From positions 1 to 64,000 of the forward strand of contig JAVTVY010018921.1 of NCBI GenBank assembly GCA_036873755.1: DNA of 64,000 bases. The letters are read 5' to 3'. This document shows positions 7,779 to 49,803 of the stretch, in pieces. Numbering within the stretch: the stretch's first letter is position 1; each line of letters opens with the position of its first letter. The notes beneath the pieces were generated by a model. The model did no database searches. It was given only the letters and a program-made list of their open reading frames with translations, and had not been told where the DNA came from. The position numbers and the translations under genes were made by a program. This stretch comes from Hanleya hanleyi. Lineage: Eukaryota; Mollusca; Polyplacophora; Lepidopleurida; Hanleyidae.

Positions 7779-7781
7779 TTT

Positions 7782-7795
7782 TGGTGCCGTGACCA
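7782..7795 (+). other. Primer-binding site for minus-strand synthesis
   Basis: TGGTGCCGTGACCA starts three bases after the 5' LTR. PBSs begin with TGG because they pair with the CCA end of a tRNA. The matching tRNA would end in ...GGCACCA; I cannot name it without a tRNA set. The same 12-mer occurs inside the LTR. Confidence 0.7.
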
Positions 7796-7806
7796 GGATC
7801 TCTGAG

Positions 7807-11474: not shown

Positions 11475-11480
11475 TTTGAT

Positions 11481-20600: not shown

Positions 20601-21365
20601 GAACTCCCCAACATTTGAAGATGCTAATGACGATGGTGCCCTGAGCTGTGAAGAACTTCCCAACATTTGAAGATGCTAATGACGATGGTGCCCTGAGCTG
20701 TAAAGAACTTCCCAACATTTGAAGATGCTAATGACGATGATGCCCTCAGCTGTAAAGAACTTCCCAACATTTGAAGATGCTAATGATGATGGCACCCTGA
20801 GCTGTAAAGAACTCCCCAACATTTGAAGATGCTAATGATGATGGCCCCCTGAGCTGTAAAGAACTCCCCAACATTTGAAGATGCTAATGACGATGGCGCC
20901 CTGAGCTGTAAAGAACTCCCCAGCATTTGAAGATGCTAATGACGATGGCGACCTGAGCTGTAAAGAACTGTCCAATATCGATAGTGCAAGAGATGCAAGG
21001 AAAGGTTCAATGTTAGGACTCCAGTTAGTAACGTTGGTAGTGGCCCGAGCAGGGAGGAATTCTGCAAAGTTGGGAGTTAGTAGCATGATACATGTAGCTG
21101 TTGGTAACTCCCCAACATTTGAAGAACGCTAACTCTCTCTGTACCGGCAGTTGCAACAGTTTCAAGCTGGTATCAAGACTGTCATGAACATGAACAAAGA
21201 GACGATCATGTTACCATCGTCTAGATTATTTCAAAGACGACAAGCTTTCGAACAAGGTATAATATGATGAAAATATTTGCTTAAAAATGCTTCATTTTTA
21301 TATGTAATTGAGAAGCAATCATTAAACTATATTTCTTATTGGTACAATTGTATGGATACGGTACT
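17655..21365 (+). repeat. 52-bp satellite, subfamily A, with three interspersed spacers
   Basis: Nearly uniform 52-bp units (consensus as at 4046-4291) alternate mainly between GGTGCC, GGCGCC and GATGCC variants. A distinct spacer of about 388 bp, beginning GAACTGTCCAATATCGATAG, occurs three times: 17953-18340, 19121-19508 and 20966-21360. It gives a higher-order structure with spacer-to-spacer distances of 1168 and 1845 bp. The spacer itself contains diverged 52-bp-like units. Minus-strand reading frames here are by-products of the repeat. Confidence 0.95.
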
Positions 21366-21880
21366 GAGAGGATTAATAGTGCCCATTACTGTATGGAACT
21401 TAGAAACTGGTTAGTATTGTTAATAGTGTCCTGGGCTGCATGAATCTGTCCAACGTAGTGATATTGATATAGTAGCTTGGGAGTTAGAAATGTTAATAGT
21501 GCGGGCTGCTATAAGGAACTATCCAACGGCGGGAGTTACTAATGTTGATAGTGCCCGGAGCTGAAATGTTCAACTTTGGATGTTGATAGTGTCCTGATCT
21601 GTACAGAACTCTCCAACATTGGAAGTTATTAACGTTGTAAAGTACTGCCCTGAGCGGAAAGGAAATCTCCAACATTGAAAGTTAGTGAAGTTGTTACTGC
21701 CCTGAGCAGTAAGGAACTCTCCAACATTGAGAGTTAATAAAGTTGTTACTGCCCTGATCAGCAAGGATCTCTCCAACACTGGGAGTTAGTAAAGTTGTTA
21801 CTGTCCCGAGCAGCAAGGATCTCTCCAACATTGGGTGTTAGTAAAGTTGTTACTGCCCCGAGCAGTAGGCTAAGGATCTC

Positions 21881-24404
21881 TCCAACATTGGGAGTTAGTA
21901 AAGTTCTTACTGCCCCGAACAGCGAAGATCTCATCAACATTGGGAGTTAGTAAAGTTGTTACTGCCTCCATCAGTAAGGATCTCACCAACACTAGGTGTT
22001 AGTAAAGTTGTTACTGCCCCGGTCAGTACATCTTCACGACGTCGCAGTTTCTATTTGTGAGCCAAAGGCGAACCCTTGACCAACTTGCATAGCAAACCGC
22101 GTTCCGCCCACACTCCAGTTACGTGACCTAGAAAAACTGCGCTGATGGTATATAATACGTTTGGGTTTTACTTTCGCTGCTAAACTATTCGCTGATACCG
22201 AATGTAAAATATTTAATCCAAGCACGCATAACAATAAAATATTAATGGATAGACCAGTGAAATTTTATAGAAATCCGTGCGTTTCAACCCAGTTCAAGTC
22301 CTTCACTTCAGTGGGAAGGTGAAGTCGGATACACTGACATCGCGGGCCGCCTTTAAAGCTTCGGTGTTTTCTACCTTTGGCTGGCTTGTTGGATGTTTGA
22401 TGGTAGATGAATGGGTTTATTTTCTCTTCAAATAGATTTTGTTTTAAACTATCTTTCCTTTATATTTATTAATGTTCATGGTTGTTGAAAAGGTGCAAGT
22501 TCATCTGCCACTGGATATCGCACAAGCTATGGTGTTTTCGAACCTGTTGTCACGGTCGCCATGGTCGCGGTGCTTAAGTTATCTGATTGGTCAATATGTG
22601 GAGGATGCCGCTGTGTGTCGTTGATCCCGATACACTGCCCAAGCGGACCAGGGGTTATATCTATCATACAGATAGAGATACCCCTGGTTTTAGCGAGGAT
22701 GCGGTCAGTAAGGATCTTTCCAATATTGGGAGTTAGTAAAGTTGTTACTGCTCCGAGCAGTAAGGATCTCTCCAACATTGGGAGTTAGTAAAGTTGTTAC
22801 TGCCCCTATCAGTAAGGATCTCATCAACATTTGGGGTTAGTAAAGTTGTTACTGCCCCGAGCAATAAGGATCTCTCCAACATTTGGAGTTTGTAAAGTTG
22901 TTACTGCCCCGAGCAGCAAGGATCTCTTCAACATTGAGAGTTAGTAAAGTTGTTACTGCCCCTAGCAGTAAGGATCTCTCCAACATTGGGAGTTATTAAA
23001 GTTGTTACTGTCCTGAGCAGTAAGGAACTCTCCAACACTCTCCAACACTGGGAATTGCTGACGTTGTTACTGCCCCGAGCAGTAAGGAACTCTCCAACAT
23101 TGGGAGTTAGTAGTTATTACTGCCCTGAGCAGTAAGGAATTCTCCAACATTGGGAGTTAGTAAAGTTCTTACTGCCCCGAACAGCGAAGATCTCATCAAC
23201 ATTGGGAGTTAGTAAAGTTGTTACTGCCTCCATCAGTAAGGATCTCACCAACACTAGGTGTTAGTAAAGTTGTTACTGCCCCGGTCAGTACATCTTCACG
23301 ACGTCGCAGTTTCTATTTGTGAGCCAAAGGCGAACCCTTGACCAACTTGCATAGCAAACCGCGTTCCGCCCACACTCCAGTTACGTGACCTAGAAAAACT
23401 GCGCTGATGGTATATAATACGTTTGGGTTTTACTTTCGCTGCTAAACTATTCGCTGATACCGAATGTAAAATATTTAATCCAAGCACGCATAACAATAAA
23501 ATATTAATGGATAGACCAGTGAAATTTTATAGAAATCCGTGCGTTTCAACCCAGTTCAAGTCCTTCACTTCAGTGGGAAGGTGAAGTCGGATACACTGAC
23601 ATCGCGGGCCGCCTTTAAAGCTTCGGTGTTTTCTACCTTTGGCTGGCTTGTTGGATGTTTGATGGTAGATGAATGGGTTTATTTTCTCTTCAAATAGATT
23701 TTGTTTTAAACTATCTTTCCTTTATATTTATTAATGTTCATGGTTGTTGAAAAGGTGCAAGTTCATCTGCCACTGGATATCGCACAAGCTATGGTGTTTT
23801 CGAACCTGTTGTCACGGTCGCCATGGTCGCGGTGCTTAAGTTATCTGATTGGTCAATATGTGGAGGATGCCGCTGTGTGTCGTTGATCCCGATACACTGC
23901 CCAAGCGGACCAGGGGTTATATCTATCATACAGATAGAGATACCCCTGGTTTTAGCGAGGATGCGGTCAGTAAGGATCTTTCCAATATTGGGAGTTAGTA
24001 AAGTTGTTACTGCTCCGAGCAGTAAGGATCTCTCCAACATTGGGAGTTAGTAAAGTTGTTACTGCCCCTATCAGTAAGGATCTCATCAACATTTGGGGTT
24101 AGTAAAGTTGTTACTGCCCCGAGCAATAAGGATCTCTCCAACATTTGGAGTTTGTAAAGTTGTTACTGCCCCGAGCAGCAAGGATCTCTTCAACATTGAG
24201 AGTTAGTAAAGTTGTTACTGCCCCTAGCAGTAAGGATCTCTCCAACATTGGGAGTTATTAAAGTTGTTACTGTCCTGAGCAGTAAGGAACTCTCCAACAC
24301 TCTCCAACACTGGGAATTGCTGACGTTGTTACTGCCCCGAGCAGTAAGGAACTCTCCAACATTGGGAGTTAGTAGTTATTACTGCCCTGAGCAGTAAGGA
24401 ATTC
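21881..24404 (+). repeat. Tandem duplication, two 1262-bp copies, apparently identical
   Basis: From about 21881 to 23142 and 23143 to 24404 the sequence repeats with a constant offset of 1262 bp. All stretches I compared are identical, including the unique 673-bp insert. Flanking satellite units differ, so the boundaries are placed to within about 30 bp. 1262 is not a multiple of 52, so this is not simple unit slippage. Confidence 0.9.
22029..22701. mobile_element. 673-bp insertion in satellite B with 9-bp target duplication
   Basis: Unique sequence interrupts a satellite unit. CGGTCAGTA occurs on both sides (22020-22028 and 22702-22710), and removing the insert plus one copy restores a normal 52-bp unit. 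The termini are short imperfect inverted repeats (CATCTTCAC and, on the other strand, CATCCTCGC). A 9-bp duplication fits Mutator-like elements, 8 bp would fit hAT. No transposase. An identical copy at 23291-23963 results from the 1262-bp duplication. Confidence 0.75.
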
Positions 24405-25473
24405 TCCAACATTGGGAGTTAGTAAAGTTGTTACTGCTCCGAGCAGTAAGAAACTCTCCAACATTGAGAGTTAGTAACGTTGTTACTGCCCTGAGCAGTA
24501 AGGAACTCTCCAGCATTGGGAGTTAGTAGCGTTGTTACGTAATGCCCTGAGCAGTAAGGAACTCTCCAACATTGGGAGTTAGTGAAGTTGTTACTGCCAT
24601 CAGCAGTAAGGGATTTTCCAACATTGGGAGTTAGTAAAGTTGTTACTGCCCTGAGCAGTATGAATCTCTTCAACATTGAGAGTTAGTAACGATGTTACTG
24701 CCCTGAGCAGTAAGGAACTCTCCAGCATTGGAAGTTAATAACGTTGTTACTGCCCTTAGCAGTAAGGAACTCTCCAACATTGAGAGTTAGTAAAGTTGTT
24801 ACTGCCCTGAGCAGTAAGGATCTCCCCAACATTGAGAGTTAGTAACGTTGTTACTGCCCTGAGCAGTAAGGAACTCTCCAACATTGGAAGTTAGTAACGT
24901 TGTTACTGCCCTGAGCAGTAAGAAACTCTCCAACATTGAGAGTTAGTAACGTTGTTACTGCACTGAGCAGTAAGAAGCTCTCAAACACTGAGAGTTAGTA
25001 ACGTTGTTAGTGCCCTGAGCAGTAAGGAACTCTTCAACATTGGGAGTTAGTAACGTGGTTACTTCTCCTGAACAGTAAGGAACTCTCCAACTTTGAGAGT
25101 TAGGAACGTTGTTACTGCACTGAGCAGTAAGGAACTCTCCAACATTGGGAGTTAGGAAAGTTGTTACTGCCCCGAGCAGTAAGGAAATCTCCAACATTGA
25201 GAGTTAGTAACGTTGTTACTGCCCTGAGCAGTAAGGATCTCTCCAACATTGGGGGTTAGTAACGTTGTTACTGCCCTGAGCAGCAAGGATCTCTCCAACA
25301 TTGGGAATTAATAACGTTGTTACTGCCCTGAGCAGTAAGGAACTCTCCAACATTGAGAGTTAGTAACGTTGCTACTGCCCTGAGCAGTAAGGATCTCTCC
25401 AATATTGAGAGTTAGGAAAGTTGTTACTGGCCCGAGCAGTAAGGAAACTGAGTGTTAGGTAATGTTAATAGTA

Positions 25474-27796: not shown

Positions 27797-28940
27797 TAAG
27801 GAGACGAGAGATAATAAAGTAAACATAATTTGAAATTTTATTTGGGAAAAAGGAATACATAAGGAACTGGTACTTATCTTCACGATAATCATTATATCTG
27901 AGCAAAGTTTTGATTAAATTAGTACTTGCATAGATTTACGGTACGAATTCTAATTAATTAAAATATTTGCATACGGGAAACAGGGTTACCCGTGTAGCTA
28001 TTCATGTTTTACTCTCTATCCATTTCGAGAGTCCGATAATTTTGTCACCCTTTACTTGATATGCATGGGCCGTCAACTTCATTCTCGTATCTGTTTTTGT
28101 CTAGTATTCTTAAATAATCTGGACTAGTAAATAACGAAAAGCAAAGTAACATGGTATGTATGGAATTGATCAGGAGTATACGTTGACTATAAACCTAGAG
28201 TCCAATGCACTTGAGAATCTTGACAGAAGTGCCGATCCTACTGTCCCAAGTTGAATACCAGTACATCTTCTATTACGGTATGTAACTAAACCAAGAGTAG
28301 AGGATATCCCGAAAACAACTTAATCTGGGGGTATCGGGTAATTATGCAGCCACTAACATATCCTGAGACCAATGTGTCCCACACACACAGCCACATTGTG
28401 GTGGTGGTGTGATCTTGATGTTGGCATTCTCCCATTATCAGAATTTGTAACTTCCTAAACTGTCGGTGCAAGGCCTGACAGAGGAGGTGTGCACTCTGAG
28501 AATGCATGTTGGTAGCAAGCATAAGAAGTTAGATAGATGGTGGTGCTGCATACATATCTGTGGTGATGTGACATAGTGTCCCAATCCCCCATCATCACAA
28601 CATACAGTCACAATTACCATGTTGGAGGCGATGGCAATAGAGGCAGTTGTAGTGCTTGGTGGCATCCCATAGCCTCCAACGTCTGGTATTTTCAAGATAT
28701 CCTCTGGTTTTGGCGTAATTACGTCTCATCGATCTGGCTGGTCGGCATTTCTGCCCTTGGAATCTGCTCTAAATGCCTATGTCGAGTTGCAGTGAATTCA
28801 CATCAAATCATACAGTTCAAGTTACAGCGTTGAAAGACCTGAGAAACATTTAGAGTCGACCATATCACAGTGGGTCGAATCATCCTGTGTCGGAAGCTAT
28901 ATACCTGATGCATATAAACTATAGTATTAAACACAATTGT
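27797..28940. other. No gene seen; 3' flank of the minus-strand gene
   Basis: AT-rich, with no clear reading frame. It would contain the 3' UTR of the minus-strand gene ending at 28941, but I found no unambiguous polyadenylation signal in the first 300 bases. Confidence 0.4.
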
Positions 28941-29491
28941 CTAAGAATCAGATGCATTCTTTCCTCCGCTCTTCTTCTTGAAGAATCGTCGCATTCTCTT
29001 CCTCAGTGGTTCCTTCTTCTCTGTATTTTTCTCTCCAGGTTTCGTCTTAGCAAAAAGCCGCCGAACCTTTTGAAGAAAAGATTTCTTCTCTCGATGGAGT
29101 TTCGTGTCGATCGAGTTATCCCCAGCGATCAATCGTTCCCTCTTCTTCTCTCTACCTGCCGCTAAGATTTCGACAGCTATCTTAGATCGAGTTTCCTCTT
29201 CGGCCGTTAGAATCTCTGCCGCCATTTTTGAAAGGGAGGCATCTTGAGCCTTCAAAATTTCGGCTGCCATTTTTGAAACTGATAAATCCTCAGTTGTCGA
29301 GATCTCTTCTGTCATTTTGGTCAGGATGTTCTCTTCTTTTAATGATGAGTTCTCCGCAGCGGCCAACATATCAGCGGCAACTTTCGAGAGGTGGCTGTCC
29401 TCATCCGCCAATATCTCGGCGGCCATCTTGGCGAGGTGTCCTTCCTCAGATTCCTCAATCTTGGTGGCTATTTTCTGGAGCTTGGGTTTGA
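28941..29491 (-). CDS. Last exon of minus-strand gene: seven 15-residue repeats and basic tail
   Basis: The exon begins after an acceptor (TTTTCATTACAG on the minus strand) and, entered in phase 1, is open to a TAG at 28943-28941. The first part is a run of 15-residue units of the type SKMAAEILKAQDASL, seven in total, one carrying a 7-residue insertion. The pattern of Ala, Ile/Leu and charges predicts amphipathic helices or a coiled coil. The last 70 residues are very basic (KKSFLQKVRRLFAKTKPGEK, RKRMRRFFKKK), suggesting nucleic-acid or membrane-phospholipid contact. I do not recognise the family. The 45-bp repeats keep frame, as expected for selected coding sequence. The link to upstream exons rests on matching intron phase. 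Confidence 0.65.
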
Positions 29492-30118
29492 CTGTAATGA
29501 AAATCGAATCTTGTTAAATTAATTCGTCAACCCTCCGACTATATAACTGTTCATAACCAATTAATTTTGGTGAGCGTTTTCGCTTAATTATATCAGTAGC
29601 AACGAGTCACGAGCATTCGCCATACCCGTATTTTGAATAATATAATATAATATAATATAATATAATATAATATAATATAATATAATATAATGAAATATTA
29701 AATATAATATAATATAATTTGCTTCAAAGAGCAAGAACTTTATTATTCTTCCTAAAATATGGATTCCACGTCACATAAAAAAAAATTCTAGACAGGAAGG
29801 TCCGGAGAAACATATCGACAAGGGAAATCTATAAATATCTAATATAACGAGTATACTCCTATGTTTAGGCATACGCCGACATATCTTGGTGTGAATTTAT
29901 TCTGGAATGGATAGGCACTAGGCCCGCAGATATAGATGATCTACTGAAACAAGTGCGCATAGGACTATACACATGGAGGAAATTCCGCGAAGTCATCATA
30001 TTTGGAGAGCGCCCCACTATATATATCATATTCACGAGCCAAGTCAACTACATCGCAAAGCTCTCTACGCTGCCTTGACATTCTTGGCTGGTGGCAGAGG
30101 AGTACTGCTCTGCGTCAC
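29492..30118. other. Intron candidate with AATAT microsatellite
   Basis: Between the last exon and the tentative exon at 30119. It includes an ATAAT/TATAA pentanucleotide array at about 29637-29718, with a short interruption. Nothing else stands out. Confidence 0.5.
29637..29718. repeat. (ATAAT)n microsatellite
   Basis: About 16 pentamer units with one interrupted stretch (GAAATATTAA). Confidence 0.9.
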
Positions 30119-30239
30119 CTGGCGGAAGTTTTAACGATGAGCAACTTTTTGCCACCAGGAGTTGTTCCCCTTCAATTTCAAGTCGACCACACTCGTAAGG
30201 CGATTCGTTATCGTTCGACCGTGCAGCGCGTCCCAAAAG
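30119..30239 (-). CDS. Tentative exon of the minus-strand gene
   Basis: On the minus strand AATCAG precedes and GTGACG follows a 121-bp open stretch (LLGRAARSNDNES...KLPP). Phase 0 in and phase 1 out are exactly what is needed to join the exon at 32291-32389 to the last exon at 28941-29491. The acceptor has a weak pyrimidine tract, so this exon is the least certain of the model; the paralogous exons could also splice directly to the last exon. Confidence 0.35.
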
Positions 30240-30530
30240 CTGATTCAATTGTTCAAAACACCGAAAGTGGCCGTAAAAATGCTTCTCCTGTTTTTTTTTG
30301 GTTTTTTTTCGGCAGAATTTTCCCGCACATTCGACACAGCTCGTTCTTAGTGGGGGCCGCCATCTTGATAATCAACTGCTACGTAACGAGCATTCTGATT
30401 GGATGCAGCAAGTCGTCTCTGCATCCCACTTATCGATGATGATTTACGTTCCAACTTTACTAGAGAAGTATGCCAAGGCAATGTACAGAGCAACGTGATG
30501 TACGTCGACTTGGCTAGAAAAGATGGAAAA

Positions 30531-30585
30531 GATTGTCCATATCATCACTGTCCATATGATCATTGTCCATATCATCACTTACCAT
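30531..30585. repeat. 15-bp minisatellite, three copies
   Basis: TGTCCATATCATCAC repeated three times with small changes. Confidence 0.8.
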
Positions 30586-30712
30586 TAACGTAGTTCTCTG
30601 TATTCTTCTTTTCCACAAGTTGGAAATTGGTTTCCTGAGAACGAGAAATATAGATGTACATGTATCACACTGAACACAACAGTAAACTGCAACACATTAG
30701 TTTCGCATAATA

Positions 30713-31850
30713 CAGGGGTAAAAGCGTTCGGTGTCCGGTTATTTTCGTTTAGTTTGACCTAACGAAACGCGAACGGAACGAAATGTAAACGCGTTCCAAA
30801 CGCGTTCCAAACCATTATAGGAAACGAAACGCTTTGAATATCGCTTAATTTTTCTTTTATCAAAACACGTTCCCCTCGTCAAATGCGCTTGCTCTGATCG
30901 TAAAGCGTTTATGAACGCGTTTCTCTTTTCGTCAACTCGCGCAAATTTGTGTTTATATTTTGCAAACCAGGCCAAAAAACCCTCGTGTCGGGGCTTTCCC
31001 CAGCCGCTATTATAATGCCTGTGCTATGAAATAAATATATGTGGCATAGACTTTAATATACCGTCCTCGCGAGCCAATGTAACAATCGATAGGTTACGAG
31101 GTCTGCAAGAATTTAGGGATTACCTGGACTTGTGCAGATGTTAATATACAAGGATAAAAACGTTCTGTGCCCGGTATAAATTTTCTTTTTTTTTAGTTTA
31201 CGCCGTAAACTAATAAAACTAATGAACACAAACGATACTGCCGGTATTTCTAAACGCTAGCTAACGGAACGCTTTTTTAACTTAGCGATTCGATAGGAAT
31301 ATTCGATATCGTTTCGTTTATATATTGCGCTAAGCTTAAATCTTCTCGTTCATCAAGCGAAACAATATTTGTCTTTCCGTATCAAGCGAAATGATTACTC
31401 AGGCGTGTGATACCGAGCCGAAAAAGCATTTCGTCTGACCTTGACTCCAGGCAACTTTTAATCAACACTCAGTCGCCGAACCATTGTAGAAAAAGAAAAA
31501 AAACAGACTAAAGAGTATTCTCGCCCGACGAAGCAAATGTGGTGTGAACGGTAATGCTTATTTAACAACAACAACAACAACAATAAAAGGCATTCCAAAA
31601 CGCGTTCCCAAAACGCGTTCCGAAACAAACGCGTTCATAAACGCGTTCGTGAAACGCATTTCACGCGAAACGAAACGAAAGATAAATGAACATACCGATG
31701 GTCAAACGCGTTTGAGAGGTATAAACGCGTTCTTTGAGAAGCAAACGAAACGAATACAAAACGCGTTCAGAATGCTATTGAAACGCGTTTCAAACGCTAA
31801 TAGAACGATAATATACGTGAAAAAACGGACACCGAACAATTTTACCCCTG
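30713..31850. mobile_element. MITE with AACGCGTT-rich subterminal arrays
   Basis: Ends are inverted repeats (CAGGGGTAAAA, then GTTCGGTGTCCG) flanked by TA. Within about 200 bp of the ends, AACGCGTT or close variants recur many times in both orientations. A second, diverged left end (CAAGGATAAAAACGTTCTGT) lies at 31149, so two elements may be nested or tandem. No transposase. The reading frame of 110 codons at 31544 is made of the repeated motif and is not a gene. Confidence 0.75.
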
Positions 31851-31852
31851 TA

Positions 31853-32290
31853 ACTATATATTATCGTCTTATATAATTTTTCTAACCAACAGTACATGAA
31901 GATGCCTTTTTAGTAGTGAGAAACATTGTGCAGAGGTTCCACTGAGCAGGTTGATGTAATACAAGAAGAATATAACTCAGAATAGAGCACACAAAGTCAT
32001 TTTGCGATTCAATATTTCAACATAATTTTACCTCATCGTCAGCAATCGATCTGTGTTGAAATATTAAACCATAAAACATCTTTGTTTACTTTATTCGGGG
32101 TCACAGTCTTGTTGTAGAAAAACACCATATTTATTCTGACCGTTCATCAAATGCCACCCCGTATATGCAATGCGTAGGGTTTACACTTGTCGCGGATTGT
32201 CGGACGAAATGTTTGAATTGATGATGAAACGACATGATCGAAAGCAATACCTCGATTTTTTTCCGATAGCATAATAACAGATGTACTCAC
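31853..32290. other. Intron candidate, no feature seen
   Basis: AT-rich sequence between the MITE and the tentative exon at 32291; no recognisable coding or repeat content. Confidence 0.4.
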
Positions 32291-32389
32291 GGTATTGCCG
32301 ACTCTAGCCTGTAAACGGGCCTTGATTGCCTTGCATTGTGCGCGCCATCCACTGTCTGCATAGTCCACTTGCGCGAGTTTATTGACTTC
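32291..32389 (-). CDS. Candidate exon of the minus-strand gene (99 bp)
   Basis: Minus strand: acceptor ATCTTCAG, 33 codons open in phase 0 (EVNKLAQVDYADSGWRAQCK...RVGNT), donor GTGAGT. Phase 0 matches the exit phase of the 50-bp exon at 32757-32806; phase 1 would hit a TAA, so the exon requires that neighbour. No known domain. Confidence 0.45.
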
Positions 32390-32756
32390 CTGAAGATAAA
32401 ATACGTCATCGTCACGTCATATTGTCCGGAGGTATATTGCTACTTTTCGGTGATGTTACCAAGGGAACCTAAGATAACTTCTTCCATTCTGGATTCTGTC
32501 TCCAGAGATTTGTTTGAATTTGCAATCGACCTAACTGCTCGTTTGTAACATTGAGCTTCACTATATAATTGTTTGCTCCTGAAGATACACATCAAATTAT
32601 TTCCATAGCCACGAGTTAGCAAGCGATTTATTTCGAAATTTCTGCACATTAAGAAATCTAATTACTGAAAGCAGTAACGACGTAATTAATATTCTCTGGA
32701 GCTTGCAGGGTCGGTGTGTGTGTATGCGAAACGTCTCTAAAGACATTCCAACTTAC

Positions 32757-32806
32757 GTCAGTACACGGATCCACTTCGGAAGGCGGCTGGGCTTGTGTCC
32801 TTTCAA
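32757..32806 (-). CDS. Candidate exon of the minus-strand gene (50 bp)
   Basis: Minus strand: acceptor TTTGTTCAG, donor GTAAGT. Entered in phase 1 it reads VERTQAQPPSEVDPCTD and exits in phase 0. The strong donor and the agreement of phases with both neighbours support it; a 50-bp exon could still be a chance match. Confidence 0.45.
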
Positions 32807-32954
32807 CTGAACAAAGACAATAAAACATGGGATAATGAACAAATAATTCGCTAGCATTCTCTGCCGCTTTATTTAGCGTCGTTGGAGAACTGACTAGGTA
32901 AATGTTATAACCGGAAACAAATGTTTGACATATTTTTCCCAACTCTGGAAAATC

Positions 32955-33030
32955 GCAGGGACTAGATGGGAATCGAACCGACGTCGTCTTTGAGATCAGC
33001 CTGTCTGGCTGAACAAGACCAACGCACATG
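32955..33030 (-). repeat. tRNA-like SINE fragment, minus strand
   Basis: Contains GGTTCGATTCCC (pol III B box) on the minus strand, preceded by a TGCGTTGGTCTTGTTCAGCC segment in the A-box-to-anticodon position. It does not fold into a clear tRNA by eye. Confidence 0.5.
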
Positions 33031-33541
33031 GGCATATACATGTCTACTCTATACCATGACACATTTGAAGAGCTGGTTTCTCAAAGAAACAAAAGTTTTA
33101 AATCTTTCTGAATTGAATGTACACTATCACTGTTCACATTTGAAGACAATTCACTTGACGAGTGCGCATTGGGGCGTGATTCGCTCTTAATTGGCTTCGC
33201 CTCTGGATTTCTTGGCAATTGAATTTCGTTTCTCCTTATTCTCCAAGGTGGAGCAGGGATAACTGGCATACTTCACATACCAACTTAAAGTTGCCAAAAA
33301 ATTTATTGGGATAAGCATGATAGCCCTTTCTTCAAATAGTAGGCTTATTTCATGCATATTTACCTAATTCATACCAGTTATCACTGATTGAAAATATGCC
33401 TCCATGTTGTAGCATAGGCGAAAACCCAGACGACCAAGAAATTTGCAACCGAGACTCGGAGCGAGTCAGGCCTCAGTGTGCACTCCGTCTGAGGTCGATA
33501 TCGGGAAGCCTCCATTACGGAGCCTAATTTCGTAGCCTCAC

Positions 33542-33727
33542 CTTTCTTCGTGTCATATTCCTGGCAGATCTTAATCATTTTGCGAACGCCGAGTTTGTCA
33601 CAGCATTGTGTCAACTTTGCCTCCACCTCTTGCATGCCCCAACCGTTAACGCTGTAGTTCTGTAGACAAGTCTGTGCCGTCTGCTCCCATTCCTGCTCTT
33701 CCAACATGTCCATGGCACGCTGCTTAT
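33542..33727 (-). CDS. Paralogous 62-codon exon, copy 2
   Basis: 186 bp bounded on the minus strand by acceptor TTTTCTTCAG and donor GTGAGG, phase 1 on both sides. It encodes a module with DMLEEQEW, C-x2-NYSVNGWGM, E-EAKL, LGVRKMIKIC and KKG. The exon at 34695-34880 has the same length, phases and key residues, so the two arose by exon duplication, which symmetric phase 1 allows without frame disruption. The module is probably a small helical domain; I do not recognise it. In this gene it would stand between the sister exon and the downstream repeat exon. Confidence 0.65.
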
Positions 33728-33744
33728 CTGAAGAAAATCACATG

Positions 33745-33935
33745 GTGGTTAGATGTGAATCGAACCCACGTCGCCGGTAATATCAACCGCCCGAACGTAC
33801 AAGACAGGCACTAGCCGATACGGCCACATCGCCTCCCATATGTGTCTCAGAATCATGTCGCCTATGATACCAAATCGCCTGATCAAACGGGATAGGATAA
33901 ACACTCTAACCGACACGGTCTCATCGCCTCCCAGA
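33745..33935 (-). repeat. tRNA-derived SINE-like element, minus strand, partly doubled
   Basis: On the minus strand GGGAGGCGATGTGGCCGTAT (A box with TGGCC-TA-CGG-TAGTG) and GTGGGTTCGATTCACATC (B box) are about 50 bp apart, as in a tRNA. A second A-box-like start (GGGAGGCGATGAGACCGTGT) lies about 80 bp upstream. This gives a two-headed SINE or tandem tRNA-like remnant, lying in the intron of the minus-strand gene. Confidence 0.6.
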
Positions 33936-34694
33936 TTTGCGAACGCACCCCCCTTTTTGCCCGTGGATTTTTGTTTTTGGCATTTCATTCCAAAGATAAG
34001 ATATCAAACCCCAATTTAGCCTTAGAAATACACTAAAATGCAGGAAATCAAGCATAAACATTCAATATTTTCCGGGGGGAAGAAGAGATAGTCGTGCCCT
34101 TCGCGTGCATTCCTGGGATGGTAAGAATTGAAAACATTCGTGCATCCTCCCCTCTCACCTTTGAAAATTCTAGTTACGGTCGGGCCTGACTCATCTTCCG
34201 GACATGTGGGGTAGGCTCAAACAGACAAACCGGAAGTAGTGATGACATAATCTGATTGGATAATTGTTATTGCGTTAGTCGCCCATTGAACCGCCATCTC
34301 GTATTTAATGGAAAGTTTTAGTATTACGTTTTCTGTTCGATAATAATCGTCGAATTTGTTACTATTATTTTCATTGAGTAACGAATCTGATAAAAGATGA
34401 GGTTTGTAGAGCAATCCGCCTTACGGAAATAACCAAACGAGATTTACTGAATTAGCCGAAATCCTTTCGACAAGTGTTTTTTAACGAAAATAATAAAACA
34501 TTCGTGTATTTTAAAACAAAAATCACTCTTGAAAGCTCGTCATCATTCTGACCGTAAAATCCTTGGGAGCATATATTGTGGGTTCTTCAAATTGTTATCA
34601 CAGATGAACCATTCATGGTGTTCTCTGATTGCGATTTTAGTTACTGTTTGTCTCACAGTTCAACGGTAACTTAATTTAAAAGTCAAAATCTCAC
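33936..34694. other. Intron candidate between paralogous exons
   Basis: No reading frame with coding character and no recognised repeat. Confidence 0.4.
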
Positions 34695-34880
34695 CTTTCT
34701 TCACGGCCTCCTCGCGGCAGATTTTGATGATTTTGCGCAATCCGAGCGCTTTCCAGCATGCTTTCAGTTCTGCTTCCATCTCTCGCATCCCCCAACCGTC
34801 CACATTATAATTTCCGAGACATATCCGGGTCCTTTGGATCCATTCCAACTCCTCTAACATGTCCAAGACACGCCGCTTAC
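34695..34880 (-). CDS. Paralogous 62-codon exon, copy 1
   Basis: 186 bp, acceptor TGTTTCATAG and donor GTGAGA on the minus strand, phase 1 on both sides. It reads KRRVLDMLEELEWIQ, then C-LGNYNVDGWGMREMEAEL, GLRKIIKICREEAVKKG. Shared with copy 2: DMLEE-EW, NY-V-GWGM-E-EA-L, C, LG-RK-IKIC, KKG. The conservation of aromatic and Cys residues across two copies, with divergence between them, supports real coding use. Family unknown; Trp, Gly and paired Cys suggest a compact fold, but metal binding is not evident. Confidence 0.65.
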
Positions 34881-35109
34881 CTATGAAACAAATAAAGTGC
34901 GTATCAAGTCAAGTTAAAGGGCAATTAAATCGCATCAAGTCCATCTCGGCCACATCATGGACGGACGATCGACTGAACCTTCACAGAAACTCCATGATTG
35001 GCTTGATACTTATACAGTATTGTCCACAAACCAATGAGAATACCGGATTGGAATTTGAATTGACCAATAAACTGCTCTTGAATTGGAATATCTACCGTGA
35101 TGCACTGGA
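34881..35109. other. Intron candidate
   Basis: An open frame runs on the plus strand (34859-35125), but it has no motif and overlaps the splice acceptor of the minus-strand exon, so I leave it unassigned. Confidence 0.35.
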
Positions 35110-35120
35110 GTTTCTACTCA

Positions 35121-35154
<34 letters not shown>

Positions 35155-35391
35155 GAAATTCATCTCACTCAAGTTGAGTGAAATTCACTCAAGTGTGAGG
35201 GAAAGTCAAATAAGTTTAGCTGAAATTCACTCAAATTTTACTCAAGTTTGAGTTGGTAACTCACTCAAGTTGAGCGAACTTGATACCACTCAAGTTGACA
35301 GGAATTTTTCACTCAAGTGCTGCTGTGGGGGGAATTTTCACTCTTAGGCTACATGAGTGAAATTTCACTCAAGTATTTTTTGAGAGTACAA
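35110..35391. mobile_element. MITE-like repeat with recurrent ACTCAAGT
   Basis: Starts CTACTCACTT followed by a long A run (about 27) and ends TTTTTTGAGAGTAC. In between, CACTCAAGT or its inverse occurs about ten times. The ends are weak inverted repeats (GTACTCTCAAAAAA / CTACTCACTTAAAA). Short palindromes ACTCAAGTTGAGT give it strong secondary structure. Confidence 0.55.
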
Positions 35392-35812
35392 TAATCCATT
35401 ACCTCGAATACCGAACACACAATGATCAGGTTATCTCGTGGATTACTTTGAGTTGCTTGATTTAAACCGTTAACGTCTTCCAAACTCCAAGTGAAATACA
35501 CAACCTCACTTCATTGATTAACATGTAAACTTCAAAGTCAGACTCCAATTATGCACTTACATTTTAGCACCTTTGCTAGAATGTATATAATCGTCTATGT
35601 GTAGACGTAGAATCCCCTAAAATGCAGTATTCAGGGGAAATACATCACGTATATGTACGTCAGCTTTTACCTGTGTTATTGATATTTTGGTGAATCGTAT
35701 TCAATAGGGGGGAGGGGGGGGGGGGCATTAATGTCCTCCTATCGAACTTTAAAACCATCTCCATATATGGTTCAGTTATTTCAGTCCAGGTCTTCATATT
35801 GTACTTCCATGA
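35392..35812. other. Intron candidate with G-rich run
   Basis: Contains a G-run cluster at about 35706-35727, possibly part of a second copy of the TTAA MITE family. Otherwise featureless. Confidence 0.4.
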
Positions 35813-36117
35813 TTAACCCCACCCCCACCAGACCTGGGGGGAGGGGAGGGGGGGGGTCATTATTACCTAATTTACTATGTATCTTTGTTTTTTAGAGATC
35901 AGCATGAACAAACAATATCGAAAATCCGAAACGTACAAATTCATATTTAAAATATGACGTCACTGCGGCCATCGTGGATTTTTGTTTACATTTCCTGGTG
36001 GAGATTGTTCCCAAGACGTTTTGTGAAAAGTTTCAGCATCCTAGCTCAAGAAGCAAAAAAGATATATATATAGTGTGTGTGGAAAGACCTGAAATAACCC
36101 AGGTCTGGTAGAGTTTC
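35813..36117 (+). mobile_element. TTAA-type MITE family, copy 2
   Basis: TTAA at 35813-35816, then CCCCACCCCCACCAGACCTG and a long G run. The central ATGACGTCACTG motif is followed by the right end CCAGGTCTGGTAGAG. The right TTAA has decayed. Confidence 0.65.
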
Positions 36118-36230
36118 GTGACCGTCTGTGATACCATCTAGAGATCTTTCCGTGTTTCCTTCCCTGTCGAATTGACAGAGAACATGTAGCCAATGCATAT
36201 CTTAGAATTTCAACAGGTGTTTCAACTTAC

Positions 36231-36260
36231 GGAATGGAAGCGGGAACCATCCAAAACATC
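36231..36260 (-). CDS. Candidate 30-bp exon of the minus-strand gene
   Basis: Minus strand: acceptor CGTTTCAG, donor GTAAGT, phase 1 in and out. With the carried G it reads G-CFGWFPLPF. Joins the first exon (phase 1) to the 186-bp exon (phase 1). Very short exons are easily found by chance, so confidence is limited. Confidence 0.4.
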
Positions 36261-37083
36261 CTGAAACGAACAATTAATAAACTATTAGTTCAATACATTT
36301 CGAGGACACATGAGATTGGTGCATGAACACAAAGGAAGTTATCGAAAATGTGGAAGCAAACAATGAGTATATCAATTGCCAATGGTCTGTTGAATCAAAA
36401 TCGTGAAAATGGTAGATATTTCGCCTTGTCAGAAGGTTACACAGAATATATATGAATATTCGTATTTTTTTTATAGTATTGCTGAAAATCTAACAATAGT
36501 TATTTTCCTTCTGGTTTCGTAGAATTTCACTTTGAACCTCAGAGCCGTGTAAAGGTCATCAAATGTCAAGGGAGAAATTATAATTCTTCAAAGAAGGACA
36601 CATCGATCTCTTCTGGTGTTTTATAATGAAGATTCTACAGAATAGATGTTGTATTTTATATGATGTATTGGTTTCATCATGTTTCTTTAGTACCGTACAT
36701 GCATGTCGACGATGAGCCCATGAATCTTTTACAGTTTAGTATTCAGAATTGTCCCCCTTGTCGATGATTGTTAAAACAGTAAATCTCGTTGTATTGATGT
36801 AATCGTTTCTATTGTGATTGTTTTCATGTACCGGTAAATCTCGAGCTTTCCATGACGATTACTGTCTACGGTTCTTTCATCTTGAAAGAATGGAAGATGC
36901 ATATAGAGTGAGCAGTTCAGGGCGACCCCTCAAGATGGTCGAGAGGACGCCAAAGGATCTCGTGAGGATTCAACTATATCGCCTTGTTTCCCCGTTTCTC
37001 GCGTTATGTTAACTTGATTCGTAATATTAAAACTTAACTATACTTAGCAACTCTATGTTAATGGTGATCTCGGTCCTACTTAC

Positions 37084-37105
37084 CCTGGTTTTCCCTTAAA
37101 GACAT
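37084..37105 (-). CDS. Candidate first coding exon of the minus-strand gene, variant a
   Basis: Minus strand: ATG at 37105, reading MSLRENQ, then G and donor GTAAGT. It exits in phase 1, like every other intron up to the last exon except around the small exons. A TGACGTCA element lies about 100 bp upstream. The duplicate of this exon at 37976-38000 retains ATGTCTTTAAG and the donor, which is unlikely to persist by chance. Confidence 0.5.
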
Positions 37106-37201
37106 TGTAGATTCTTGCGCTTCGTGATCAAACGTTTTCTGGCTGATGTGTTGATACTTATCATCCGTAGAAACGATTGCGATATTTCACGTCGCTACCA
37201 G

Positions 37202-37225
37202 TGACGTCACTATCGGGCGACGTCA
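37202..37225 (-). promoter_or_regulatory. CRE-like promoter sites of first exon a
   Basis: TGACGTCA at 37202-37209 and CGACGTCA at 37218-37225. TGACGTCA is the consensus for CREB/ATF factors. Position, about 100 bp 5' of the minus-strand ATG, fits a core-proximal promoter. Confidence 0.5.
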
Positions 37226-37975
37226 CCACCATATATGAGGCTCGCTGTTGCGGTACGCAGACATGGCGGTGTCATCAAAGTTGCGCTCATGTTGGAAACA
37301 TAGCACAGCTATAGGCCTAATAGAATCCTTGTAATCATTTACGTAGCTTACTTTTTTCTATATTTTGATATATCTACATAAATTTGTCACTAGCTGTTAT
37401 ATATAGAAGGAGTGGGTATAAACGTGCCGTATCCAAAATATTTGGGTTAATATTACTCTCAATTTCAAGGTCATCGAATGAGGGAGACGTTCTAATTCCT
37501 CAAAGCGATCTCTTCTGGTGTTCTATAATGTGATTCTACAGAATGTATGCTGTATTTTGTATGATTTATTGATTTCATATGCATTTTTTTTTGTATGTGG
37601 ACAATGAGTCCAGAAATCTTTTACAGTTTAGTATCCAGATTTCCCATCTTGTCGATTGTTAAAATTGTAATTTGTTTGAGTTGATGTAATCCTTTCTATT
37701 GTTATTTTTTTTCATGTACCTGTAAATCTCGGGCTTTACATGACAATTACTTTCTAATGATGAATGGAAGATGCAACTATAGAGTGACTCCTTCAGATGA
37801 TCCCGCAAGATGATCGAGAGGACGCCAGAGTGTTTCGCGAGGATTCTGCTATATACCGCCTTGTTTTCCAGTTTTTCACGTTATATTACCTTGTTTCGTA
37901 ATATTAAAACTGAACCACTTTAACAACTCTAGGCCTACCTATACGGTACTCTCGGTCCTATATAGGCCTACTTAC

Positions 37976-38000
37976 CGTTGTGTTTTCCTCTTAAAGACAT
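37976..38000 (-). CDS. Candidate alternative first coding exon, variant b
   Basis: Minus strand: ATG at 38000, reading MSLRGKHN, then G and donor GTAAGT. The exon is three bases longer than variant a but keeps phase 1. It lies in the second half of the tandem duplication and has its own pair of TGACGTCA sites. Confidence 0.45.
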
Positions 38001-38096
38001 TGTCGATTCTTGTGCTTCGTGATGAAACGTTTTCTGGCGAATGTGTTGATACTTATCATCCGTAGAAACGATGGGGGGATTTCGCGTCGCTACCAA

Positions 38097-38120
38097 TGAC
38101 GTCACTATCTCCTGACGTCA
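38097..38120 (-). promoter_or_regulatory. CRE-like promoter sites of first exon b
   Basis: Two perfect TGACGTCA sites, 38097-38104 and 38113-38120, about 100 bp upstream of first exon b. Compared with variant a, both sites are perfect here. Confidence 0.5.
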
Positions 38121-38140
38121 CCACCACATGTGGGTTTCTA

Positions 38141-38523
38141 GAAATGTTAAATTTGTGCCTTTGGCTGGAATCCTTCCAGACAACGCGCTGAATTCGAACG
38201 CGCTAAAAATAACCGATACATATATTTCCGTGGTGTCCGTTCCCATTTGTTAACTGGAAAATGTCGATATGAAATGGTTATTCTCGTAAAAACACAACAA
38301 TTTATATACCAAATTAAAGCGGATTATAACATTTCATTACGGTATATCAAGAGTCCTCTCCCTTTTTGTCCTGGAATCCAACGAAATGAGTCCAAAATGC
38401 TTCTATATCGGCTTTATTTAGCGCCCGGATTTCCGGATACGCCCCACAGAAGGCATGTTTTCGCCCGACTTCGCATAAGCTAATTAGTACAAGTTTGTCC
38501 GAATTGACCCCAAAACCCGTGCT
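38141..38523. other. No feature seen
   Basis: Short plus-strand frame (38247-38483) without a recognisable motif; no repeat identified. Confidence 0.35.
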
Positions 38524-38953
38524 GGACTAAATTTTAGAGCTTATGCGAGGAACATCATTAAATAGCTGTGCGATCACATTCAGTAGAAAACTGAAATCTG
38601 TGAATGAGAAAACCCTCCAAATCCGTTCGAATTAATAAACCTCAGTTTACGCTGGGATACAGGCTTACGTTAATAAAGTTTATAGCGTCAGATTACCGAA
38701 GTTAAGCAACGTTAAGCTCGGTCAATACTTAGATGGGTGGACTAAATTTTAGAGCTTATTCGAGGAACATCATTAAATAGCTGTGCGATCACATTCAGTA
38801 GAAAACTGAAATCTGTGAATGAGAAAACCCTCCAAATCCGTCCGAATTAATAAACCTCAGTTTACGCTGGGATACAGGCTTACGTTAATAAAGTTTATAG
38901 CGTCAGATTACCGAAGTTAAGCAACGTTAAGCTCGGTCAATACTCGGATGGGT
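38524..38953 (+). repeat. 215-bp tandem duplication within a SINE
   Basis: GGACTAAATTTTAGAGCTTA begins both copies (38524 and 38739). They are nearly identical (for example TATGCG versus TATTCG). The junction lies in the GATGGGTG box of the 5S-like sequence, so the first copy is cut there and only the second continues. Confidence 0.9.
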
Positions 38954-39118
38954 GACCGGGTGCGGTACTGGCTGGGCTAATCAGTGTCCAGGATAATAGG
39001 AACTGTGGACACTCTCGTGTTCTGGCACATGTATAGGCACCGTCGTGATATGACTGAAACAATGTTGAAAACGACGTTACCGTACTCACTCACTCTCCTA
39101 ATAAAGTTGTTGTTGTTC
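38640..39118 (+). mobile_element. 5S-rRNA-derived SINE
   Basis: The block 38906-38975 carries the 5S internal-promoter region (ACCGAAGTTAAGCAACGTTA, GGTCAATACTCGGATGGGTG, then ACCGGGTGCGGTACTGGC). A truncated copy lies at 38689-38738 because of the tandem duplication. The 3' part ends GTCGTGATATGACTGAAACA, GACGTTACC, ACTCACTCACTC and a TTG repeat, the tail also seen in the SINEs at 41.8 and 52.9 kb. The 5' third of 5S is missing, so it is a SINE head and not a 5S gene. Confidence 0.8.
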
Positions 39119-39951: not shown

Positions 39952-39998
39952 AGTGAGTGCCAGGTAGGTTGGAAATTCCAACCTACCTGGCACTCACT
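39952..39998. repeat. 47-bp perfect palindrome
   Basis: A 23-base arm (AGTGAGTGCCAGGTAGGTTG + GAA), one central A, then its exact reverse complement. It would extrude or fold as an almost loopless hairpin. Confidence 0.95.
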
Positions 39999-46144: not shown

Positions 46145-46270
46145 GCCTTTGTTAATCATTAATTCACATTATCAATTAATTATTCCTGGTGTGTTCCTTA
46201 GCCTGTACAAAGGCATTTATGTATCTATAGCATGTATGGGCTTTTAACCAAAAAATTATGTATTTTACAG

Positions 46271-49200
46271 TTCAGCCTGAAGAACAGTCGGCATGTTCAC
46301 AAGTACAGAACTATTCCCATGTATCCATCAAAGACAGCACTGTAGGCTCCCAGAACAATTCTACATCAAATAATGTGACTCCGACTGATAAGCAAGCACT
46401 GAGACTGGACTTTCCTTCTGCGGCAGAAGGAAGTCCTGCTGGAGAGGAGAATATTAATCAACCAGTTATTAGGCCTATTCGGACTGCACCTGTTGTGACA
46501 ACTCCAGTACCAGTATCCCAGGGAGAATGTGGAGGCAACAAGAGTGACCCACCTTCTATAGTGCTCTCAGGACAATGTGGTCAAATCGAAGTGAACCAAA
46601 GCCCTGTGGTTTTCACTATTCAGTCACCTCTTGGCCAGTTAAGTTCCTTAACTTTAACTAGTGCTCACCCACAAATTCCTCTCCATGCTGCATGTACTGG
46701 AGTAAACCATCCACTGAATGGGGAAGCTAGTGGGTCCACATGTACAGGATTTAGCATGGACAATAACATGGACAATAGCATGCTTTTTGAAGAGGATTTG
46801 ATGCGAGAAGAGCCAGTTTTGGTGAATGCTGTAACAATTGAGCCAGCTTCTCCCCTTCTCCAAGGTAGTTCAACAATCGCTGGAGACGGTTCATCATCAG
46901 GAAAAATATGCATTACACCAAGTATTCATGAGATCGACTCTAGTAGTCCGGCAGTGCGGAATGAACGCTCTGTCATGCACATTAAACTAGGTTCAGGATT
47001 GGTTCCATGCTTAAGTGAATCACCAATAGATGGTTGTGTCAGTGAAAGGATTCCGGTACCAGAGAGTCGACCAGGTACTCTTCATCCAAAGAAAACTTCC
47101 CCAGATGCTTCACTAGCTCTTGGTCCAACCAACATGTCCAAAGTTACTCCCTTAGCTCATCGTTCGACTGAAACGTCACACCACCATGCTAGGAGAGAAT
47201 CTGGTGGTTCAGAGGACAGGCTGAAGGGAAGGGATGATTTAGCCCGTTCAGGCAATCCAGTGGCTCGCATCTTGTCACAGCTTAATCCAGAAGGTCGATG
47301 TTCCATGAAAGACAACAGGAATACCGTCACCATGAGCACTGATAAGCCAGCTTGTAACTCATTACGAGGATCATTCGGGTCCTTAGACGTTACTGCTGGT
47401 GAAGACCCGTACCCTGAGCTGGGAGATATCAAACTTGAACCTGCAACAGATGCATTCTGGAAAGAAATTATTGGAGACCTGGATGCCACTAACGATTTGA
47501 TGCAGTCGTCGACGCATTCTGTACCGGACACAGGTTTGCAAATTGCTGCAGACGATATTACTATAGAAGCCGCCCCACCTTTGCCAGAGGAGAGTCTGGA
47601 GGAAAAGCTGAGAAGCTTCATAGCTGCATTTGGGCGATATGTTCCTATCAAATCTGAACAACCAATTGATGAAGACATCAAGCCTCCCCCTCATGAACCA
47701 CCTTTCACGTCGAAGGAGTTAGTTCAGAACAGCATAATGGATAAACAAGAACAGTTGTCTGCAAACAGGAACCGACAGAATGCTACAAGTTGCAGAACCG
47801 TCAGTGTAGGTGAGTCTTTCATTTTCAACTCTGTTGGAAAAGTAATTCTCCCTACCTCTAAACATAGGATTGATTACAAGAAACTGAATAATCCCGCCTC
47901 TCGTGGTAAATATGTGGATAAACCGTACAAGTGTGCTACATGTGGTAAAGGATTTGTTTGCCTTCCGAAATTAGTGCAGCACAAGTGTGTGGAAAAATCC
48001 ATACGGAGAGCCGGACGTCCTTCGAAAAATACATTGAAATGTTCAACATGTGGAAAGTGCTTCGCACGGATTGTTGATTTAGAAAAACATAAGAGAATAC
48101 ACATTGACAAACAATACAACTGTAGCACATGTGCTCAGGAATTTGATTGTCTTGTTAAATTGAAGCAGCACGAGCTACGACATGAGGAATTGCCTTGGAA
48201 ATGTTCAACATGTGGGAAATCCTTCTCCCAGAGTGATTTGTTAGAAAAACACACGGAAATACACACAGACAAGCAATACAAATGTTCTACATGTGACAAG
48301 GGATTTGTTTATCTAGCAGAGTTGGAGCAACACAGAATTGAACATAATGAAGAAACGTCTTGGTTATGCTCAAGATGTGGAAAATGCTTCTCCCAGAGTG
48401 ATTTGTTAGAAAAACACAAGGAAATACACACAGAAAAACGATATGAATACTCTACTTGTGATGATGGATTTGTCCATCCAACGGACCTGAAGCAACACAG
48501 ATTTGAAAATAAGAAAGAACAGTTTTGGAAATGTCCAACATGTGGAAAACGTTTCTCACAAAGTGATTTATTAGAAAAGCACATGGAAATACACTCAGAA
48601 AGTCAGCAGAAATGTTCCAGTTGTGATGAAGGATTTGTTCATCAAGCCCAGTTGGAGAAACACAACGTAGAAGATGATAATGGGAAGTCTTGGAACTGTT
48701 CAACATGTGGAAAACGTTTCTCAGAAAGTGATTCGTTAGAAAAACACATGGAAATACACTTAGAAAGTCAGCAGGAATGTTCCAGTTGTGATGAAGGATT
48801 TGTTTATCAAGCCCAGTTGGAGAAACACAAAGTAGGACATAATAACGAGAAGTCTTGGAAATGTTCAGCATGTGAAAAATGTTTCTCTCAGAGTGATTTG
48901 TTAGACAAACACAAAGAAATACACATGGATACACAATACAGATGTGGTATATGTGGTCAGATATTTGGTTTGAAGGTAAACTTGGAGCAGCACAGATTGG
49001 ACCATGATATGAAAAAGCCTTGGAAATGTTCAACATGCGGAAAATATTATGCTCAGAATGATCTGCTGCGAAAACACGAGAAATTACATGAGAAAGTACA
49101 CAAGTATTCAACAAACAAACGATTCAAGTGTGCCACTTGTGGTCAGAGATTTCCATGTCTGTCAAAGTTGGGGCAGCATCAACGGAAGCACACCGGGGAA

Positions 49201-49803
49201 ACGCCATGGAAATGCTCAAAATGTGGAAAATGTTTTGCTCGAAATGATGTGCTTAAAAAGCATGAGGCTATCCATGTCAATGACCGACGGTTCAGATGCA
49301 GTATTTGTCTTAAAAAATTCCTGTACAATTACGAACTGAAACGACATGAGCGATCCCACTCGGGGGAGAAGCTTTATGAATGCCACTTGTGTGGAAAGAA
49401 AGTAACCCAGAAATCTGGTCTGCGACGGCACATAGAATCACACATTGGGCAAAAGCCTTTCAAATGCTCATTATGTGGAAATGACTACGTCAGAAAAAGC
49501 GTCCTGTCGAAGCATATGAGAACGCACTCAAAAATAAAGCGTTGCTGGTGTCTGGTTTGTGGAAAGGTCTTCTCAACAGAGAAAACTCTACAAATCCACT
49601 ATTCCATGCATACAAAGAAACACCCTAAACAGTGTCCCATCTGCAAGAAGAACTACCAAACCGTGGAAAGGGTGCTATGGCACCTGAAAGGGCACTCCTT
49701 AATGCACAAATGTACAGAATGTGGGAAACAGTTCGGACGCCCATGCCAACTTAATGCTCATATGATAAAACGACACATGAAGAGAGCTGTGAAACAAAGT
49801 TAA
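46271..49803 (+). CDS. C2H2 zinc-finger protein, main exon with about 22 fingers
   Basis: Acceptor TATTTTACAG ends at 46270; the exon enters in phase 1 and runs to TAA at 49801-49803. With the two upstream exons the model has 1259 residues. The first half (about 550 residues) is low-complexity and acidic with no known domain. It contains the IKSEQP and IKLEP motifs that resemble SUMO sites (psi-K-x-E). From 47926 onward there are about 22 C2H2 fingers (Cys-x2-Cys-x12-His-x3-His). In the middle, two types alternate: WKCSTCGK-FSQSDLLEKH-EIH and CSSCDEGFV-QAQLEKH, so a two-finger module was duplicated repeatedly. At least two of the second type have lost zinc ligands. The product is likely a nuclear DNA-binding regulator; its target is unknown. 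Confidence 0.92.

Follow-up and report, generated by a model that had tools for sequence, protein, structure and literature searches.

A spliced gene of Hanleya hanleyi and its paralogue, without relatives in the databases searched, grown by exon, repeat and first-exon duplication

The described systems closest to the gene discussed here are MARCKS and GAP-43, in which a basic-aromatic segment serves as membrane anchor; the right-handed pentadecad coiled coils, exemplified by the stalks of trimeric autotransporter adhesins; and orphan gene families that grew by duplicating exons in tandem. The gene lies on the minus strand of a 64,000-nucleotide stretch of the polyplacophoran mollusc Hanleya hanleyi (assembly GCA_036873755.1, contig JAVTVY010018921.1, positions 1 to 64,000), hereafter the window, and is predicted to have eight coding exons and a product of 391 residues (MSLRENQ.. 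to ..NASDS; 392 codons including the stop). That the window holds a genuine spliced protein-coding gene of animal type is, in our estimate, a conclusion with a probability of about 0.97. With the orphan families it shares an in-place duplication of a phase-symmetric (1-1) exon, internal repeat expansion, the failure to find a homologue, and the presence of two paralogues; it differs from them in that a first-exon unit is duplicated too, in both paralogues. The likeness to MARCKS and GAP-43 lies in the basic-aromatic segment, in a short N-terminal lipid-anchor candidate beside basic residues, and in the long stretch between these putative anchors. The differences are several: Pfam scans of the protein did not list MARCKS among matches up to E 5; all four first exons of the two paralogues begin MSL and not MG, hence there is no N-myristoylation site; the basic segment sits at the C-terminus; and the protein is predicted to be helical, whereas MARCKS is mostly disordered.

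The evidence that carries the gene is above all its paralogue. The window's own assembly (2,481,469,871 bases in 52,793 contigs) was searched with the two modules encoded by exons 3 and 4, giving four matches, a pair at the window gene's own two exons and a pair on another contig, C18219. Queries with exon 8, and with one module of the paralogue at E <= 10, again returned the same two genes only; more diverged copies could escape. On C18219 all eight coding exons are present in the same order and phases (Table 1), and the introns are bounded by GT..AG at seven of seven positions in both genes. Nine exons were compared in length, five being equal, three (exons 5, 6 and 7) differing by 6 bases and one (exon 1a) by 3, a difference divisible by three in 9/9 cases. 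The paralogous product has 398 residues and 57% protein identity (221/387 aligned). The NG86 method gives a non-synonymous divergence (dN) of 0.278, a synonymous divergence (dS) of 1.123 and a ratio (omega) of 0.25, with a bootstrap range of 0.18-0.37 in 400/400 resamples; base differences at the first, second and third codon positions number 104, 92 and 160. Region by region, the approximate omega values are 0.11 for exons 1-2 (only 19 codons, dS 1.87), 0.16 for the tail (43 codons), 0.18 for module 1, 0.28 for the repeat part and 0.72 for exons 5-7; in module 2 dS is saturated. These ratios indicate purifying selection on the protein in window gene and paralogue. Judged from their sequences, the two are paralogous genes of one genome, a gene and one diverged sister copy.

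Much of the exon structure had been proposed in the initial annotation, which had been made by eye. Seven of its eight exons (22, 30, 186, 186, 50, 99 and 551 bases) stand, with GT..AG borders, matching phases and paralogue counterparts with conserved splice sites, and the junctions 37084/36260, 36231/34880, 34695/33727 and 33542/32806 appear sound. Its 121-bp exon 7 does not stand, nor does junction 30119/29491, which is replaced by 32291/30634 and 30583/29491. A 52-bp exon 7 was adopted because the paralogue has a 58-bp counterpart, its two splice sites included, and lacks any match to the 121-bp region; the earlier total of 415 codons including the stop (414 residues) is corrected by this exchange to the 392 given above. 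The splice signals, formerly called good, are mixed. An approximate splice matrix, used to rank the minus-strand sites of the window, marks three sites as weak: the donor of exon 2 (top 8.5%) and the acceptors of exons 4 (top 4.6%) and 8 (top 8.0%). For the 52-bp exon 7 the same ranking places the acceptor in the top 0.17% and the donor in the top 0.40%.

Exons 3 and 4, already noted as two 186-bp exons of equal phase with shared residues, are identical at 128/186 bases and 35/61 residues (tblastn within the window, E 9e-22), as expected of a tandem exon duplication. Between them dN is 0.285 and dS 1.40 (NG86), and in a codon bootstrap omega ranged from 0.08 to 0.56 in the 439 usable of 500 resamples, none being at or above 1. 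The range lies wholly below 1, and therefore the duplicated exons diverged under constraint at the level of the protein. Since the duplication occurs in both window gene and paralogue, it is most simply older than the gene duplication; the module identities (over 61 residues, 43 between the first modules, 37 between the second, 35 within the window gene and 40 within the paralogue) do not order the events cleanly. Across the four modules 29/61 residues are invariant, including W13, C20, W29, C41 and C54. The best AlphaFold2 model, made from an alignment of two sequences only, has three helices (residues 2-23, 31-45 and 47-60) and a mean predicted local distance difference test score (pLDDT) of 86. 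Structure searches with the module against PDB gave no significant match, which is no proof of a new fold. The loop between helices 1 and 2 (NxNxDGWG) is loosely like the start of an EF-hand loop. The module departs from the EF-hand helix-loop-helix, however, in that neither window module has a Pfam match at E <= 1, the Glu of loop position 12 is absent, and the N/S/D residues of the loop vary among the four modules. Exon 6 was considered as a third, degenerate module on a YxxxGW pattern seen by eye, and was rejected: shuffle p was 0.08 against module 2 and 0.40 against module 1, and hmmsearch (E 0.13/0.25) and hhalign (E 0.39) were not significant.

The last exon had been described as one of 15-residue repeats, and the period is genuine: over the first 120 residues of exon 8 the lag-15 self-similarity is 1.48, against -0.72 to 0.60 at the other lags tested from 3 to 39, a score reached in 0/2000 shuffles. 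The strongly basic tail of that description is borne out in both genes (Table 1); exon 8 before the tail carries a net charge of -8 in the window gene and -9 in the paralogue. In both genes the strongest hydrophobic period of the first 118 residues is 3.7 (17/500 shuffles reach the peak in the window gene, 15/500 in the paralogue), and the periodicity is carried by the first 45 residues (peak 3.8; 22/500 and 5/500). Structure prediction for exon 8 gives mostly long helices (pLDDT 72, predicted template modelling score 0.26), for which Foldseek found no match in PDB. The exon resembles the pentadecad (15/4) right-handed coiled coils in its 15-residue repeat and its hydrophobic period near 3.75, the value of 15/4 = 3.75 residues being the one assigned to right-handed coiled coils in a published account (PMC4786415). 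It differs from them in belonging to a spliced gene of animal type, in which no Pfam adhesin domain and no significant sequence or fold match was found.

At the 5' end a tandem duplication of about 650 bp (36604-37231 against 37506-38126, 78% identical) carries a second first exon, 1b (38000-37976), which is in the same phase as exon 1a and had been overlooked; the paralogue likewise has two first exons. Pairwise comparison of the four first-exon units shows 94-109 identical positions in the 124 bp before the ATG, with similarity falling off upstream, and every unit has two TGACGTC sites at equal spacing. When the two genes are compared, the block stands out from its surroundings: of its 124 aligned columns 94-99 are identical, whereas the figure is 21-45 of 63-71 on the upstream side and 70-85 of 117-128 on the downstream side, although the flanks were forced through a global alignment. 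In a tree of the four units, those belonging to one gene fall together (support 0.956), yet the 1a units of the two genes have upstream sequence in common (45/70 columns, against 21-29 of 63-72 in the other pairs). The units would either have been duplicated before the gene duplication and then homogenised, or have been duplicated twice.

A search of the assembly DNA with the 5' block, in which four candidates were scored, found both window units, one unit on C18219, and contig C51986, without indicating that the block is a repeat dispersed in the genome; it missed the 1a unit of C18219 (about 81% identity), and further diverged copies may escape. Compared with C18219, C51986 matches over 34571-37321 (97.9%) and 32272-34576 (96.0%), flanking about 21.8 kb of other sequence, in a comparison that leaves out C51986 positions 30001-30147. 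The extra sequence (about 4392-26229 of C51986) lies between the paralogue's two first-exon regions, with an overlap of about 6 bp at its borders. C51986 is probably the other haplotype of the paralogue region with an insertion.

Relatives were sought in Pfam, PDB, a set of 5.8 billion proteins, and viral and prokaryotic contigs, and were not found; in the protein set the search covers relatives that share 5-residue words and have 0.55-1.75 times the query length. Named metazoan proteins (from Mytilus, Pinctada, Araneus and frogs) are present in this set, as a control search with pol shows, and the absence of matches is informative for that reason. A 134-residue query to the same set also gave no relative, a weak result with merely two candidates scored. 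Matches to Biliverdin reductase, Galaxin, a DUF and napin were weak or under the cut-off and are taken as chance. The proposal of a lineage-specific gene that grew by exon duplication and belongs to no known family is supported by the constrained module duplication, the complete paralogue and the lack of a database relative, 'lineage-specific' holding within the collections named and for relatives sharing 5-residue words. The gene grew by three kinds of duplication: a 186-bp exon of phase 1-1 was copied, as were a 45-bp repeat within exon 8 and the unit around the first exon.

As to function, we tentatively favour, at rather less than even odds, a lineage-restricted cytosolic all-helical scaffold that would have a membrane-docking site at each end. 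In the short N-terminus, encoded by exons 1-2 (GC[FL]G[WC]FP.., then RKRR), docking would come about by S-acylation of a conserved Cys together with a basic patch; the two Trp/Cys modules, of three helices each, would form a protein-binding unit; the acidic 15-residue repeats would build a right-handed coiled-coil rod through which the protein oligomerises; and the basic-aromatic C-terminal segment could bind acidic lipids in the manner of the MARCKS effector domain. The two promoters bearing cAMP response elements (CRE) would allow CREB/ATF-type signals to switch the gene on, giving two slightly different N-termini.

Several observations weigh against such a scaffold. Membrane docking is read from residue patterns picked out by eye, and the second Cys of paralogue exon 2 is a Trp in the window gene. 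Three of the five AlphaFold2 models of the module reach a pLDDT of only 56-62 (86, 84, 62, 60 and 56 for the five). The later repeat units alone (52 residues) show a periodicity no higher than shuffles (334/500 and 445/500 reach it), and the helical moments of tail peptides are no higher than those of their own-letter shuffles (278, 883, 308 and 299 of 2000 reach them). The idea that block and exon are better conserved than the intron between units 1a and 1b of the window gene was dropped as not significant (Fisher p 0.21). Finally, the window contains ten TGACGTCA sites, three within the two 5' blocks and 7/10 outside; by our own estimate the count exceeds expectation from base composition, and with the motif so frequent, its presence alone proves little.

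Doubtful in its own right, and almost as good as the membrane scaffold, is a nuclear or nucleolar protein, in which the basic tail would act as nuclear-localisation and nucleic-acid-binding segment and the modules and coiled coil would assemble the protein. The tail charge of +15 (+14 in the paralogue) comes with KKRMRRFF-type clusters conserved in both genes, and neither signal peptide nor transmembrane stretch was seen in the 391 residues, by eye and with no predictor run. Conserved aromatic and hydrophobic residues amid the basic ones, and an N-terminal exon rich in Cys, Trp and Phe, would nevertheless be unusual for a plain nuclear-localisation signal, and no DNA- or RNA-binding family match was found in Pfam. 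An inducible immune or stress effector appears improbable; its cationic C-terminal part would act against foreign membranes, perhaps once cleaved off the acidic repeats. The succession of acidic repeats and cationic tail would suit this, as would the two first-exon units with their paired CRE-like sites and the confinement of the gene to few taxa, as far as searched. The tail, however, is strongly constrained (omega about 0.16), whereas immune effectors often evolve fast; its peptides are no more amphipathic than their own shuffles; and a secretion signal was not seen by eye in the model.

It is very improbable that the 414-residue model with the 121-bp exon 7 is the correct one. Between exons 6 and 8 there are two in-frame options, the 121-bp (30239-30119) and the 52-bp exon (30634-30583). 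The former keeps the frame, has a fair donor (top 1.24%), and falls within a region, 30040-30420, containing coding-like pieces. Its acceptor, by contrast, is merely in the top 34% of minus-strand AG sites; no counterpart exists on the paralogue contig, whereas the 52-bp exon is conserved there with its splice sites; and the coding-like pieces are in different frames and resemble a separate, decayed CxxC fragment. This fragment (30040-30420, minus strand), which holds the discarded exon and has a CxxC start, reads MAAPTKNELCRMCGKILPKK.. in one frame and EQLNQLLGRAARSNDNESPYECGR.. in a second, and has no match in Pfam. Least likely of all, and refuted as far as sequence can refute it, is a pseudogene or a set of chance open frames: the lacking database match would fit, but the paralogue has the identical exon structure, the four exons that differ in length among the nine compared do so by multiples of three, omega is 0.18-0.37, and neither gene contains an internal stop.

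Table 1. Coordinates of the window gene and of its paralogue (positions refer to the window unless the contig is named)
Feature	Position	Strand	Remarks
Exon 1a, first coding exon	37084..37105	-	22 nt, MSLRENQ.., ends in phase 1; counterpart C18219:33745-33721
Exon 1b, alternative first coding exon	37976..38000	-	25 nt, MSLRGKHNG.., ends in phase 1; donor in top 0.23%; counterpart C18219:34777-34753
Exon 2	36231..36260	-	30-bp microexon, phase 1-1, GCFGWFPLPF; candidate S-acylation / membrane patch
Exon 3	34695..34880	-	186 bp, phase 1-1, Trp/Cys helical module 1
Exon 4	33542..33727	-	186 bp, phase 1-1, Trp/Cys helical module 2; best AlphaFold2 model of three helices, pLDDT 86
Exon 5	32757..32806	-	50 bp, linker
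Exon 6	32291..32389	-	99 bp, phase 0-0; no significant third module
Exon 7	30583..30634	-	52 bp; takes the place of the earlier 30119-30239
Exon 8	28941..29491	-	551 bp including the stop; encodes the 15-residue repeats and, after them, the basic tail
Repeat part in exon 8	29154..29489	-	divided by eye into six units of 15 residues and one of 22; consensus [DE]xSLSKMAAEILxAE
Basic-aromatic tail in exon 8	28944..29087	-	net charge +15 (paralogue +14), KKSFLQK[VI]R.LF.K..KKEPL[RK]KRMRRFF.KKS
5' block of exon 1a (promoter and/or 5' untranslated region)	37106..37229	-	TGACGTCA (37202-37209) and TGACGTC (37219-37225)
5' block of exon 1b (promoter and/or 5' untranslated region)	38001..38124	-	two TGACGTCA sites (38097-38104, 38113-38120)
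3' flanking segment, probably 3' untranslated region	28630..28813	-	67% over 189 columns against paralogue counterpart
Paralogue exon 1a	C18219:33745-33721	-	25 nt; differs by 3 bases from window exon 1a
Paralogue exon 1b	C18219:34777-34753	-	length equal to window exon 1b
Paralogue exon 2	C18219:28736-28707	-	length equal to window exon 2
Paralogue exon 3	C18219:28142-27957	-	length equal to window exon 3
Paralogue exon 4	C18219:26697-26512	-	length equal to window exon 4
Paralogue exon 5	C18219:26143-26088	-	differs by 6 bases from window exon 5
Paralogue exon 6	C18219:25625-25521	-	differs by 6 bases from window exon 6
Paralogue exon 7	C18219:24594-24537	-	58 bp; differs by 6 bases from window exon 7
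Paralogue exon 8	C18219:23780-23230	-	length equal to window exon 8

Beyond the gene, the window contig and C18219 share retroelement frames and several short matches, the latter taken for repeats without being checked one by one. Mitochondrial COX1, looked for in the assembly, gave no match. A 215-bp unit is repeated twice (98%) at 38523-39095, beside some 195 bp also present on C18219 (88%); it looks like a short repeat family and found no match in Rfam. At least three TGACGTCA sites outside the 5' blocks, at 27471, 35955 and 57131, lie in or beside stretches also present on C18219 or C51986. At 39952-39998 is a 47-bp inverted repeat that is almost perfect (97.9% to its own reverse complement), its Rfam matches being sub-threshold and of microRNA type only. 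A Gypsy-like retroelement with several open frames occupies 7768-13077 on the plus strand, its pol frame (9081-11030) matching protease, reverse transcriptase and RNase H. Two large 52-bp tandem repeat families with different units follow at 17653-20969 and 21605-25446, and a 61-bp tandem repeat of 15 copies (63086-63999) reaches the window end. An open frame of 1190 residues at 46231-49800 (plus strand) with 17 C2H2 zinc-finger stretches is apparently a zinc-finger gene that reads without introns.

What had been a by-eye guess is now a well-supported two-gene orphan family with fixed exon boundaries and a common 5' unit. It may represent a new animal family, unlikely as we hold this in its full form, that joins a newly arisen 61-residue Trp/Cys three-helix module to a right-handed pentadecad rod, as a lipid-anchored cytoplasmic scaffold of one lineage whose duplicated CRE-driven promoters would swap the first 7-8 residues beside the membrane anchor. 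The family offers a tractable case of the assembly of a new animal protein by three kinds of duplication, of a first-exon unit, of a whole module exon and of a 45-bp repeat; and if the fold of the module proves new, a small domain without known relatives would be gained.

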